Shown: piece after piece, positions 46,999 through 51,432 of the stretch
How the letters are laid out: each line of letters begins with the position of its first letter
Position numbering within the stretch: the stretch's first letter is position 1
DNA from: Flavobacteriaceae bacterium Ga0077528
Lineage (GTDB): Bacteria > Bacteroidota > Bacteroidia > Flavobacteriales > Flavobacteriaceae
Direction: 5' to 3'
Assembly (NCBI GenBank): GCA_001464475.1
Contig: LNDX01000003.1
Coordinates: 186,001 to 250,000, forward strand
DNA: 64,000 nucleotides
Made by a program: the position numbers and the translations under genes
Notes under the pieces: model-generated
Told to the model about the DNA's origin: nothing
What the model saw: the letters and a program-made list of their open reading frames with translations, nothing else
Databases searched by the model: none

Positions 46999-47006
46999 TA
47001 TCTTTG
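46999..47006 (+). promoter_or_regulatory. -7 element (TATCTTTG) for the HMG-CoA reductase gene
   Basis: Exact TAnnTTTG, 27 bases before the ATG at 47034. It lies inside a TTG-initiated 5' extension of the frame, which is a reason to reject that longer start. A 12-bp AT-rich palindrome AGAATTAATTCT (46981-46992) lies just upstream. Confidence 0.6.
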
Positions 47007-47033
47007 CTAAAAATAAGATATAATCATTTGAAC

Positions 47034-48350
47034 ATGAATAACGCTGTTGCCGGATTTTCAAAACTATCAAAAGAAGATAAAATCAATTGGATTGCTACTG
47101 AATACTTTACCAATCCATCAGAAGCTATTACGACAATAAAACAATATTGGAACAACGATTCTAAATTGCAACAATTGCATGATGAATTTATTGAAAACAC
47201 GATTACAAATTTCTATTTACCAATGGGAATTGCTCCAAATTTTCTAATCAATAACAACTATTATTCGGTTCCAATGGTGATTGAAGAGAGTTCAGTTGTT
47301 GCTGCAGCTGCAAAATCAGCTAAATATTGGAGTACTCGTGGCGGATTTAAAGCAACGGTTTTGAATTCAGAAAAAATTGGACAGGTACATTTTATTTATA
47401 AAGGTGATGTTCAAAAATTAGAAAATTTCTTTAAAGTAACAAAATCAAAATTGGTTGAAGAAACCGAAAACATCACCAAAAACATGCAAAAACGCGGTGG
47501 TGGAATTTTGGATATTGAACTAAGAAATAAAACCAATGAATTAGAAAACTACTTTCAACTGCATGCCACTTTTGAAACGAAAGATTCTATGGGAGCAAAT
47601 TTTATAAATTCTTGTTTAGAGCAATTTGCAAAAACATTAAAAGTAGAAGCTCAAAATTATGATGGTTTTTCTGAAGAAGAAAAAAACATTCAAGTAGTGA
47701 TGAGCATTCTTTCTAATTATGTTCCCAATTGTATTGTTCGTGCTGAAGTTTCATGTAAAATTGAAGATTTAGCCGAAAAGAAAATCGAGAATCCAGAAGA
47801 ATTTGCAGAGAAATTTGTTCAAGCGGTCAAGATTGCAGAAATAGAACCTTTTAGAGCAGTAACGCACAATAAAGGAATTATGAACGGAATTGACTCAGTA
47901 ATTCTTGCAACTGGAAATGATTTCCGAGCTGTTGAAGCTGGCGTTCATGCTTATGCTTCTCGAAACGGAAAATATTCAAGTTTATCTCATGCTAAAATAG
48001 AAAATGGTGTCTTTACTTTTTGGATGGAAATTCCATTAGCTTTAGGAACTGTTGGCGGATTAACTTCATTGCATCCATTAGTGAAAATGGCTTTACAGAT
48101 TTTAGGAAAACCATCGGCACATGAATTAATGCAGATAGTTGCAGTAACTGGATTGGCACAAAATTTTGCAGCTTTGCGTTCGTTAACCACAACTGGAATT
48201 CAAGAAGGACACATGAAAATGCACATTAATAATATTTTGAATCAGTTTCAAACTTCTGATGAAGAAAGAATAATGATTAAAAAGCACTTTGAAAACAACA
48301 CTATTTCTCATGCTGCAGTTGTAGAATTTATTGAAAATTTAAGAAAATAA
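47034..48350 (+). CDS. Hydroxymethylglutaryl-CoA reductase, class II
   Basis: The enzyme interconverts HMG-CoA and mevalonate. I chose the ATG at 47034 (438 residues) because the -7 promoter element overlaps the longer frame. Class II signatures are present: a Glu in VIEESSVVAAAAK, DSMGANFINSC, the catalytic Lys in THNKGIMNGID, an Asp in ATGNDFRAVEAG, GTVGGLTSLHP, and the C-terminal catalytic His in GIQEGHMKMHINN. Class II enzymes are often annotated as degradative, but flavobacteria make isoprenoids through mevalonate, so a biosynthetic role is likelier. A GHMP kinase gene follows after 4 bases. Confidence 0.93.
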   Translation: MNNAVAGFSKLSKEDKINWIATEYFTNPSEAITTIKQYWNNDSKLQQLHDEFIENTITNFYLPMGIAPNFLINNNYYSVPMVIEESSVVAAAAKSAKYWSTRGGFKATVLNSEKIGQVHFIYKGDVQKLENFFKVTKSKLVEETENITKNMQKRGGGILDIELRNKTNELENYFQLHATFETKDSMGANFINSCLEQFAKTLKVEAQNYDGFSEEEKNIQVVMSILSNYVPNCIVRAEVSCKIEDLAEKKIENPEEFAEKFVQAVKIAEIEPFRAVTHNKGIMNGIDSVILATGNDFRAVEAGVHAYASRNGKYSSLSHAKIENGVFTFWMEIPLALGTVGGLTSLHPLVKMALQILGKPSAHELMQIVAVTGLAQNFAALRSLTTTGIQEGHMKMHINNILNQFQTSDEERIMIKKHFENNTISHAAVVEFIENLRK

Positions 48351-48354
48351 TTTT

Positions 48355-49269
48355 GTGAAAAAAGAATTCTACAGCAACGGAAAATTATTAATCACAGGAG
48401 AATATGTGGTTCTTGATGGCGCAAAAGCGTTAGCGTTACCAACAAAATTTGGTCAGAATTTAATTATTGAATCTTCAGAAAATGAAGTTATTCAATGGAG
48501 AAGTCATGACCATGATGGAAGTATTTGGTTTGAAGACACTATCCCATTTTCTAGTATCATTGAGAAGAAAAATTATGATGAAATTCATAACATAAAAAAC
48601 ACACTAATTGAGATTTTGCACGAAGCATATCTTATGAATTCTGACTTTATTACAAATTCAAAAGGTTATAAGATTACAACGGAACTCACCTTTCCTAAAT
48701 TTTGGGGTTTGGGCACTTCTTCTACTCTAATTAACAATATTGCTCAATGGTTAGAAATTGACGCCTACGAATTACTTAAAAGAAGTTTTGGAGGAAGTGG
48801 ATATGACTTGGCTTGTGCTCAAAATGATTCGGCAATTATCTACCAATTAGTCAATGAAAAACCAATAATAGAAAAAATAGCTTTCGAACCTGATTTTACT
48901 GATAAAATACATTTCGTTTATTTGAACAGAAAGCAAAGTAGCAAATCTGCAATTGCTTCATATCTAGACAAACAAGGAGATATTGGGAAAACTGTAAAAG
49001 TAATTGATGCAATTACAAAGACAATTGTAGATGCAACAGGACCAAAAGAATTTGCATTAGCATTACATAAACATGAAATTGAAATGAGTAATGTTTTAGA
49101 ACTTCAAACAGTTCAAGAAGCTTTGTTTGATGATTTTAGTGGAGTTATCAAAAGTCTTGGTGCTTGGGGTGGCGATTTTGTTTTAGCAATTTCTAAAGAA
49201 AACCCAATAGAGTATTTCAACAATAAAGGATACAAGGTAGTGATACCTTATAAAGATATGATATTATAA
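48355..49269 (+). CDS. GHMP-superfamily kinase (GYDIA type), mevalonate-pathway candidate
   Basis: The 304-residue protein starts with GTG, 4 bases after the HMG-CoA reductase stop. It has the GHMP kinase N-terminus FYSNGKLLITGEYVVLDGAK, the ATP-binding motif FWGLGTSSTLINN, and GGSGYDLACAQ, the motif that gives its name to the GYDIA family of Bacteroidota. The substrate is not established. Relatives include mevalonate and phosphomevalonate kinases, and the tight coupling to HMG-CoA reductase suggests a kinase step of the mevalonate pathway. The operon ends in a strong hairpin just downstream. Confidence 0.8.
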   Translation: MKKEFYSNGKLLITGEYVVLDGAKALALPTKFGQNLIIESSENEVIQWRSHDHDGSIWFEDTIPFSSIIEKKNYDEIHNIKNTLIEILHEAYLMNSDFITNSKGYKITTELTFPKFWGLGTSSTLINNIAQWLEIDAYELLKRSFGGSGYDLACAQNDSAIIYQLVNEKPIIEKIAFEPDFTDKIHFVYLNRKQSSKSAIASYLDKQGDIGKTVKVIDAITKTIVDATGPKEFALALHKHEIEMSNVLELQTVQEALFDDFSGVIKSLGAWGGDFVLAISKENPIEYFNNKGYKVVIPYKDMIL

Positions 49270-49273
49270 AACT

Positions 49274-49303
49274 AAAAAATCCCGAATTACTTCGGGATTT
49301 TTT
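49274..49303. terminator. Bidirectional terminator between the GHMP kinase and PpiD-type genes
   Basis: AAAAAATCCCGAA pairs perfectly with TTCGGGATTTTTT around a TTAC loop, between two convergent stop codons. Confidence 0.93.
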
Positions 49304-49326
49304 ATATAATTTTTAGAAAGAATCTA

Positions 49327-51432
49327 CTAATAGAATTCTAATCTATTATCGTCAATTTTTGCATCATTTTTCAATGCTGGGAAAACTCTTCCTGAAGCTT
49401 GACCTGCATTAGCTTTCAATTTGTTTACATAATCGTCATACTTAGGCAATTTTGGTGCTTTAGCAACAGATTTTGTTTTGATAACATAAACTCCAGAATT
49501 TCCTTCGATTGGAGCAGATACTTTATTTGCTGGAGATCCAAAAGCAGTTCCAACTACTTTAGCTTCTAATCCAACATTTGCTAAAACAGCATTATCAACA
49601 GATGCAGCTGGCGCATTTTGAACAGTAGTTGCATTAGCTTTAGCAATTGCTTCTAATGAAGAACCTTTCATTTTAGCCATAATTTTTTCAGCTTTCTTTT
49701 TGTTTTTGATAATACTTTCAACTAATGGTTTAGCTTCTTCAACTGTCATTAGACCTTTTTCGTTGATTTTTTTCAATCTAGCAATGATGTTTCCAACATT
49801 AACAACTTCAAATCTTTTTACGTCACCAACATTAGTATCATCACTGTAAGCCCATTTTATAACTTGTCTTTGATTACCAGCAGCACCAAAAGCTTCATCC
49901 ATTGGTTTAGCTTTTATTGATGGATTTACAGTAAGTTTAGCCGCCTTTGCAACTGTAGCAAAATCTTTACCTGCTGCATCCATTTCAAACTGTGTAGCTT
50001 TTGTAAAAGCTTCGTTTGTTGTTTGCTCTGATGCTTCAATTTTTTGAGCAACAGTAGCTAAACGAATTGCATCTTGCTTATCGGTAACATTAATAATATG
50101 GTAACCAAATTCTGTTTCTGCAATACCAATTTTTCCAACTGGATTATTAAAAACGAAATCTTTATATCCTTTAGCAAAACCAGTTTCTCTAGAGATGAAT
50201 CCCATATCACCACCATTTTGTTGAACAGATGGGTCTTCAGAATTTGTTAATGCCATCATTTGGAACATTGAAGGATTTGCCAAAACTTGAGCTAACAATG
50301 CATCAGCTTTAACTTTAGCTTCTTCTTTAGTTCTTTTTTCTTTTGGAGCAGCTCTTTCAGCACCAACCCAACTAATTAAGATGTGACTAGATTTAACTTG
50401 ATCACCAGCTTTTCTACCCATCACTTTAGAAATGCAGTAGTAGTTTCCGTTGATGTATGGCCCGTAGATTTCACCTGCTGGCAAAGCAAATAATTTATCA
50501 GCATGCTCTGCAGGCAAATTTTGTTTTGTTACATATGTAGAATCGTATGGTTTATCTGAATTTGCAGCAACGAAATCAGCAACATTTGTAGCGTTTCTAA
50601 AACTTGGTAATGTATCGTTTTTACCTGTTTCTTTATTATAAACAACGCTACCTGTTAAAAGTCCGTTGATTTTAGCTTTCATTTCTTCTTCATCTTTTGC
50701 AGATGGTTTGTCTTCAATTAAAACGTATTCAATTTCACGAGTTTCCTCAGATTTGAAACGTTTTTCATTTTTCTTCATGTATTCTAAAATGTCAGCATCT
50801 GTAACTTTTACATCACTATCTTTAATTGTAGAATATAACACAGAAACGTAATCAAAATTTACTTTGTTAGCTTCCAATTCATATTTGAATTTTCCGTCAG
50901 CATTTGTAACATACATTCCAGCTTTGATCATTGAGCTGTAGATTTGGAATTTAGAGTTGATGTCAGCATCTTTTTCTCTATCTTTCATCATCTGAGCTTG
51001 TTCTGGATTATTTTTAAAATATTCTTTAAACTTAGCCAAGTCAAATTTTCCTAATTGATTTAAGAACATTGGATTTTGACCAATATTTGGATCTTTTTTG
51101 AAAAATTCAACAATATGATTATCACTAGTACGAATACCAGCTTTTTCAAATTGCTCATTTATTAAAGCAATTGCAACTTCTTGCTCCCAAACTTGATTAG
51201 CTGCTTGCGTTTGTGTTATAGGTTGTCCGTTTTGTCCGTTCTTTTCAGTATTTGCAACTTTAATTCTAAAGTCTTCAAAAGCAATGTCTTTTCCATTTAC
51301 GCTTCCTACATCATGAGATTGACTTTTGATTCCATTTGAAAACAAATCTTGAATAACAAATGCTAACAAAGCAAGACCAATAACTAATAAAAGTAATCCC
51401 GAGCGCTTTCTAATTTTTTGTAAAACTGCCAT
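49327..51432 (-). CDS. PpiD-type membrane-anchored peptidyl-prolyl isomerase/chaperone
   Basis: The 701-residue protein has one N-terminal membrane helix (RSGLLLLVIGLALLAFVIQD), a SurA_N-like chaperone domain (about residues 35-210), a parvulin domain (about 345-455: KSSHILISWVG, SEDPSVQQNGGDMGFISRE, VGKIGIAETEFGYHIINVTD) and a second parvulin-like C-terminal part. This is the PpiD layout: a periplasmic folding factor at the inner membrane that helps secreted and outer-membrane proteins. It is the last gene before a terminator in the run starting at coaX, though a 108-base gap with a possible own promoter precedes it. Confidence 0.9.
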   Translation of the reverse strand: MAVLQKIRKRSGLLLLVIGLALLAFVIQDLFSNGIKSQSHDVGSVNGKDIAFEDFRIKVANTEKNGQNGQPITQTQAANQVWEQEVAIALINEQFEKAGIRTSDNHIVEFFKKDPNIGQNPMFLNQLGKFDLAKFKEYFKNNPEQAQMMKDREKDADINSKFQIYSSMIKAGMYVTNADGKFKYELEANKVNFDYVSVLYSTIKDSDVKVTDADILEYMKKNEKRFKSEETREIEYVLIEDKPSAKDEEEMKAKINGLLTGSVVYNKETGKNDTLPSFRNATNVADFVAANSDKPYDSTYVTKQNLPAEHADKLFALPAGEIYGPYINGNYYCISKVMGRKAGDQVKSSHILISWVGAERAAPKEKRTKEEAKVKADALLAQVLANPSMFQMMALTNSEDPSVQQNGGDMGFISRETGFAKGYKDFVFNNPVGKIGIAETEFGYHIINVTDKQDAIRLATVAQKIEASEQTTNEAFTKATQFEMDAAGKDFATVAKAAKLTVNPSIKAKPMDEAFGAAGNQRQVIKWAYSDDTNVGDVKRFEVVNVGNIIARLKKINEKGLMTVEEAKPLVESIIKNKKKAEKIMAKMKGSSLEAIAKANATTVQNAPAASVDNAVLANVGLEAKVVGTAFGSPANKVSAPIEGNSGVYVIKTKSVAKAPKLPKYDDYVNKLKANAGQASGRVFPALKNDAKIDDNRLEFY

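Follow-up and report, generated by a model that had tools for sequence, protein, structure and literature searches.

We find that a GYDIA-family GHMP kinase gene in a 64,000-nucleotide stretch of the Flavobacteriaceae bacterium Ga0077528 genome (contig LNDX01000003.1, positions 186,001 to 250,000, hereafter the window) very probably encodes the phosphomevalonate kinase (PMK) of a mevalonate pathway whose other steps are all accounted for. The gene follows a gene for class II hydroxymethylglutaryl-CoA reductase (HMGR), and an earlier note on this DNA had proposed from the pairing that its product acts on mevalonate or phosphomevalonate. Our results support a role of this kind and favor PMK over mevalonate kinase (MVK), since every one of the 35 genomes found to carry GYDIA has another gene in the MVK role, and since most profile and motif comparisons lean toward PMK, notwithstanding that the nearest solved structures are MVKs. 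Substrate and reaction are inferred from gene content, co-location, presence and absence across genomes, the GHMP fold and sequence motifs.

In the proposed scheme, HMGR would form mevalonate, which a divergent MVK encoded on another contig (C38) would convert to mevalonate 5-phosphate. The GYDIA kinase would then use ATP for a second phosphorylation, yielding mevalonate 5-diphosphate (EC 2.7.4.2), MvaD from the same contig C38 would decarboxylate this product to isopentenyl diphosphate, and IDI would isomerize the latter to dimethylallyl diphosphate.

Mevalonate pathway genes of the genome

The genome to which the window belongs (G000 in our numbering; 3.45 Mb in 52 contigs, 99.99% complete) carries three adjacent genes on contig C38, for MvaD, an MVK-like kinase and the prenyltransferase UbiA, together with HMG-CoA synthase on C11 and IDI on C8. 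IDI scores above its cut-off (133 bits, cut-off 105.8). The scores of MvaD against its best curated family, TIGR01240 (156.8 bits, cut-off 171.35), of the MVK-like protein against TIGR00549 (59.1 bits, E 4.6e-16, cut-off 163.05) and of HMG-CoA synthase against TIGR01835 (278.3 bits, cut-off 360.35) all fall below the curated values, and these enzymes are therefore divergent as well. Among the steps from HMG-CoA synthase to IDI, PMK alone is without a match, as a search of this genome with the canonical PMK model TIGR01220 returned nothing at E ≤ 0.001. GYDIA is the sole unassigned GHMP kinase seen in this inventory, with the remaining PF00288 proteins being a galactokinase and a homoserine kinase. 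Searches of the same genome for isopentenyl phosphate kinase (IPK) and for Dxr gave no match; a search for the animal-type PMK (PF04275) gave none either, but it is uninformative because the control genomes also gave none. The earlier expectation that the kinase fills a missing step is thus borne out by an inventory holding a divergent MVK and MvaD without a TIGR01220 PMK, and the complete set of standard kinases elsewhere in the genome that would have spoken against it was looked for and did not appear.

Distribution across Bacteroidota genomes

Seven models were searched in the same sample of 247 Bacteroidota genomes from 43 families, and the resulting sets were compared by script, except for the MVK set, which was compared by reading its table. 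The GYDIA model NF040656 matches 39 of the 247 genomes at E ≤ 0.001, and 35 of these are over its cut-off (hereafter the GYDIA genomes): 27 in the window's own family (f1), 3 in f2 and 5 in f5. The matches under the cut-off are to a PMK-like gene in G159, G227 and G235 and to a 160-aa frame in G035. Dxr, our marker for the methylerythritol phosphate (MEP) pathway, is present in 212 genomes, and those without it are exactly the 35 GYDIA genomes; the flavobacterial MVK profile is matched in exactly these 35 as well.

The MvaD model PF22700 matches 162 genomes at E ≤ 0.001 (99 over the Pfam cut-off) and some control genomes as well, E. coli and B. subtilis among them; we counted only the 39 genomes with E < 1e-29. 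These strong matches have 105.9 bits or more, with the next-best match at 35.9; the other 60 over the cut-off are partial, at 35.9 bits or less, and were taken as other GHMP kinases without individual checking. The 39 genomes with strong MvaD comprise the 35 GYDIA genomes and four more (G066, G159, G227 and G235), and a full-length TIGR01220-type PMK-like match is found only in those four, with zero overlap with the GYDIA set. GYDIA is the only candidate found for the PMK step in 35 of 35 genomes having MVK and MvaD and no other PMK. As to the number of independent events, the PMK genomes in families f16 and f23 carry information, since the other sampled members of these families have neither a strong MvaD nor a full-length PMK-like gene.

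TIGR01220 matched 14 of the 247 genomes in all, and the four counted are those in which the match covers the model (in G066 as two stretches), while the other ten are partial, with best E values of 1.1e-6 to 6.5e-4. The GYDIA genome G088 has a weak and partial match to this model (E 1.6e-4, positions 2-156). None of the 247 genomes reaches the curated cut-off of 165.7 bits, not even the four with PMK-like genes, and neither does any of 14 control genomes. Each of these four PMK genomes has a run of three genes, for MvaD, the PMK-like protein and a long HMGR. The one long HMGR that was scanned is an HMGR-MVK fusion, whose MVK half aligns with the equivalent stretches of the other three (all four hereafter the fused MVKs).

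HMGR itself is found in 57 of the 247 genomes. Eighteen genomes (e.g., G013, G072 and G195) have HMGR and Dxr and lack a strong MvaD, GYDIA and a PMK-like gene, so GYDIA follows MvaD and not HMGR alone.

Dxs (TIGR00204) was dropped as a marker for the MEP pathway and replaced by Dxr, as it matches all 247 genomes at E ≤ 0.001 (214 over the cut-off). A Dxs-like match is kept in the window's genome (E 6.3e-137) and in 26 other f1 genomes despite the absence of Dxr, with E values across this group from 2.9e-112 to 6.7e-146. The product of Dxs, 1-deoxy-D-xylulose 5-phosphate, serves pyridoxal phosphate and thiamine synthesis, and the gene is perhaps retained in f1 for one of these purposes.

Family, motifs and fold of the kinase

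The window kinase is a full-length member of NF040656, matching it at 420 bits (cut-off 225) with residues 4-303 over profile positions 1-299 of 299. This model, "GYDIA family GHMP kinase," is typed "hypoth_equivalog" in NCBIfam and carries no substrate, in agreement with what the earlier note said of the family; a substrate for it is proposed here. Searched alone against Pfam, the window protein matched no GHMP domain at E ≤ 1. Its predicted structure has a pLDDT of 92.1 and a pTM of 0.88, and the Foldseek search with this model has MVKs on top (E 3.5e-15 to MVK). On the strength of the predicted fold and of motifs 1-3 (Table 1), we are confident that GYDIA is a member of the GHMP kinase superfamily.

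Motifs were compared in five alignments. A1 holds 27 GYDIA rows (the window protein, 8 of the 48 related loci described below and 18 from further genomes) and omits many further rows, mostly near-duplicates, as well as L103 and L104 because of their unclear start. A5 combines the window protein with 34 of these 48 loci, giving 35 GYDIA rows; A2 holds the four PMK-like proteins, A3 the four fused MVKs and A4 two flavobacterial MVKs. Motif 1 of GYDIA aligns with PGKLILLGEY of the PMK-like proteins, and the GSGYD from which the family takes its name aligns with their GSGxDIA. Asp151 in the latter motif we take to be catalytic, as in other GHMP kinases.

A distinction lies in the GxGG end motif, which is followed by Asp in GYDIA (27/27 in A1, 35/35 in A5) and in the PMK-like proteins (4/4), and by Gly in the fused MVKs (4/4) and the flavobacterial MVKs (2/2), so that none of the six MVK rows has the Asp. 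The same Asp is found in the solved structures 1k47 and 3k17, the second of which is a PMK-like protein by profile, and a GGD end may therefore be diagnostic of PMK. GSGGGG occurs in all 30 MVK loci L111-L140, but the motif had been used to pick the frame there and this is not counted as evidence. Of the two features by which we define an MVK, the GYDIA protein has neither the GGGG end motif nor a match to TIGR00549 at E ≤ 0.001.

The resemblance to the Gram-positive type of PMK (TIGR01220; solved as 1k47 and 3gon) thus extends over the GHMP fold, the GEY of motif 1, the GSGxDIA region and the GGD end, together with a position in the pathway, as proposed here, after MVK and before MvaD. GYDIA differs from this type in being too divergent for detection by TIGR01220 in the window's genome, in its length (304 aa, against 342-359 aa for the four PMK-like proteins) and in forming its own clade. 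The MVK of M. jannaschii (1kkh/1vis) shares the fold and comes first among solved structures in both the profile and the Foldseek search, but it ends in GGGG where GYDIA has GGD, and in the GYDIA genomes the MVK role is taken by another gene (35/35).

Weighing the assignment

At the level of profiles, hhalign scores GYDIA highest to the PMK-like proteins (103, 98.2%), then to the fused MVKs (53, 91.4%) and the flavobacterial MVKs (40, 65.3%, 138 columns). The NF040656 model itself scores weakly against the four PMK-like proteins (26.6-35.4 bits) and is absent from the 21 families listed for the single fused HMGR-MVK protein scanned.

Several observations weigh against assigning GYDIA as PMK. 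The hhalign ranking is rough, as A2, A3 and A4 have only four, four and two rows, and by the same method the PMK-like proteins have the fused MVKs as closer kin (99.3%, score 144) than GYDIA. Among solved structures, the GYDIA profile finds the M. jannaschii MVK first (1kkh/1vis, E 3e-8) and PMK 1k47 only at E 0.02; M. jannaschii is also the only one of the 14 controls matched by NF040656, below the cut-off, and Foldseek places MVKs first among structures. VIA-align returns a near-tie (Z 24.4 for 3k17, 24.2 for an MVK, 24.2 for a heptokinase and 23.6 for a PMK), and with PMK, MVK and sugar kinases tied at the top, the fold indicates a GHMP kinase only. In a tree of 56 proteins, GYDIA forms its own clade (99/98), which a weakly supported deep branch (63/91) sets beside MvaD and not with PMK. 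The inventory has its own limits, as the PF00288 search misses divergent GHMP members (it recovered neither GYDIA nor MvaD), so that a further unseen kinase is possible, and a second, weak PF22700 match exists in the window's genome. The 35 genomes belong to only 3 of the 43 families, so few independent events underlie the presence/absence profile; the MVK matches are weaker in f5 (E 2.8e-55 to 1.9e-31), where the one in G162 spans one TGA. Finally, HMGR and GYDIA lie within 1.2 kb of each other (between match ends) in only 27 of the 35 genomes: all but one of the 27 from the window's own family, none of the three from f2 and a single one of the five from f5.

A further idea is that GYDIA arose as a PMK from a GHMP lineage of its own, recruited where Bacteroidota dropped the MEP pathway, and that its GGD motif is convergent and not inherited from canonical PMKs; we regard this as tentative and on balance doubtful.

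A rival reading is an exchange of the two kinase roles, in which GYDIA would be the MVK and the GHMP kinase of C38 the PMK. In its favor, the nearest solved structure to GYDIA by both profile and Foldseek is an MVK, and the gene adjoins that of the mevalonate-forming enzyme. We nevertheless consider the exchange quite improbable, because the C38 protein matches TIGR00549, although below the cut-off, and the S. aureus MVK 2x7i (E 1.7e-7), because it has the MVK-type GGGG end motif whereas GYDIA has the PMK-type GGD, and because the GYDIA profile scores higher to the PMK-like proteins than to MVKs. All readings other than PMK and this exchange would together claim only a slight share of the probability.

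Larger among these is a modified mevalonate route through phosphomevalonate decarboxylase and IPK, leaving GYDIA to act otherwise, for example on another isoprenoid or a sugar. Such a route is known in archaea and some Chloroflexi (PMC9385802), and sugar kinases are among the fold matches of GYDIA. The absence of an IPK match in the window's genome makes it most unlikely here, as do the score of the C38 MvaD, which is best to diphosphomevalonate decarboxylase and far under the cut-off for phosphomevalonate decarboxylase (86.2, cut-off 475), and the lack of GYDIA over the cut-off in the four genomes that pair a PMK-like gene with MvaD. The failure of GYDIA to match a Pfam GHMP domain and its own clade might suggest a GHMP protein with a regulatory function or in decay, which is only co-transcribed with HMGR. 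This is hardly credible given that all 27 aligned rows share K10, G118, G120, S122 and D151 and that GYDIA is present in all 35 genomes without Dxr, including 8 in which HMGR is not within 1.2 kb.

Relation to published work

The PMK assignment would close a gap reported in 2014, when E. anophelis, F. branchiophilum and Flavobacteriaceae generally were described as having the mevalonate enzymes except PMK, and a stand-in by another GHMP kinase was suggested with homoserine kinase and galactokinase genes named (PMC4026382). It would also give a substrate to a family still typed "hypoth_equivalog." Since all 35 GYDIA genomes lack Dxr, the enzyme should be essential there. The pathway is ordinary isoprenoid metabolism, and we see the result as annotation repair and not as new biology.

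Flavobacterium johnsoniae reportedly makes use of a general mevalonate pathway in which the kinases are only distant relatives of the known ones, according to work by Hayakawa et al. in 2017. By organism name this species is of the same genus as the window's closest relatives; its genome is not among the named loci of the 48 relatives. Hayakawa et al. may have assayed the F. johnsoniae orthologue of GYDIA, and if the PMK of that study is this orthologue, the function is already proved. The PMK assignment has probably been demonstrated in a related species. A citing article (PMC8431678) states that the 2017 study (PMID 28442346) examined mevalonate-pathway enzymes of F. johnsoniae. Our literature searches found no paper naming a GYDIA protein as PMK, and the 2 papers that contain the word GYDIA do not, judging by title and abstract, concern enzymes.

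The gene pair and its surroundings

The pair had been described as an HMGR gene and a GYDIA-type kinase gene 4 bases apart with a shared promoter and terminator. Both frames and the gap (48351-48354) are as described, and the products match TIGR00532 and NF040656. The HMGR protein scores 296.8 bits against TIGR00532 (cut-off 259.95), which makes it a class II HMG-CoA reductase, and 315.8 bits against PF00368. The peptides EESSVVAAA, HNKGIMNG, GNDFRA and EGHMKMH are all visible in its sequence, and we take the Glu, Lys, Asp and His in these, respectively, to be the class II catalytic residues. The "degradative" in the name of TIGR00532 seems a poor fit here, as a genome without Dxr should need mevalonate for isoprenoids.

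Table 1. Features of the HMGR-GYDIA gene pair, in window coordinates.
Feature	Position	Strand	Basis or remark
Candidate promoter element TATCTTTGC, weak	46999..47007	+	TANNTTTG site in 6 chosen upstream regions; TANNTTTGC near chance frequency
Class II hydroxymethylglutaryl-CoA reductase (HMGR), mevalonate-forming, 438 aa	47034..48350	+	ATG start; TIGR00532, PF00368
GYDIA-family GHMP kinase, most likely phosphomevalonate kinase (PMK), 304 aa	48355..49269	+	GTG start; NF040656, predicted fold, phylogenetic profile
Motif 1, NGKLLITGEY, residues 8-17, with GHMP Lys10	48376..48405	+	G9, K10, E16, Y17 invariant 27/27
Motif 2, GLGTSS, ATP phosphate loop, residues 118-123	48706..48723	+	G118, G120, S122 invariant 27/27
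GSGYD, residues 147-151, putative catalytic Asp151; origin of family name	48793..48807	+	G147, S148, G149, D151 invariant 27/27
Motif 3, GAWGGD, residues 269-274, final Asp as in PMKs, unlike MVKs	49159..49176	+	Alignments A1-A5
Terminator-like hairpin and T run, readable on both strands	49273..49304	+	14 pairs, loop 4

The terminator part of the description stands, in that a terminator-like stem follows the kinase gene, while the promoter is not shown. Between 46600 and 49500 there are two such hairpin sites, which are the two strands of this one stem, against 1.0 expected; being readable on both strands, the stem could act for the convergent gene at 49327-51432 as well, and it would make a fair bidirectional terminator. 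Upstream of HMGR, TATCTTTGC fits the Bacteroidota -7 motif. The TANNTTTG site is visible in all six upstream regions, which were chosen by hand and three of which are nearly identical to the window, and the window holds 25 TANNTTTGC sites where 21.9 are expected, so a shared promoter for the two genes is a candidate and a guess. Co-transcription of the pair is suggested by co-location.

A contig search gave 48 related GYDIA loci, of which 46 are informative, as L036 and L078 begin at a contig edge. An HMGR frame lies upstream on the same strand in 46 of 46, and the gap, measured between the longest open frames, is at most 210 nt in 42 of them; the pairing is not due to chance. The wider gaps are those of L040 (695 nt), L076 (2342 nt), L077 (827 nt) and L079 (1208 nt), and the exact 4-base spacing varies among relatives and is not conserved. 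In one of the sampled genomes, G107, HMGR is on a separate contig and GYDIA lies about 4.7 kb from MvaD, within an MvaD-MVK-UbiA group.

Among the loci with wide gaps, L040 and L079 (Flavobacterium covae CP067379.1) have frames split into shorter open reading frames (HMGR in both, GYDIA in L079). As the pathway should be essential, errors in the sequencing are the probable cause. Three contigs titled as Bifidobacterium breve or Klebsiella pneumoniae metagenome-assembled genomes (L047, L060 and L078) carry Flavobacterium-like GYDIA at 58-75% identity, in L047 and L060 with HMGR upstream, and these titles or bins are probably wrong.

The GYDIA start codon is ATG in 39, TTG in 2, GTG in 1 and ACA in 1 of 43 loci, the count omitting the five of the 48 (L067, L072, L075, L078 and L080) whose match does not start at residue 1. 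In L103 (G064:C33) and L104 (G158:C11), from one genus of f5, no ATG, GTG or TTG stands at the conserved start, and ATT or ATC is found where the aligned Met is expected (placed by eye against A1). Rare start codons are known, as in infC, and these two genes possibly use one.

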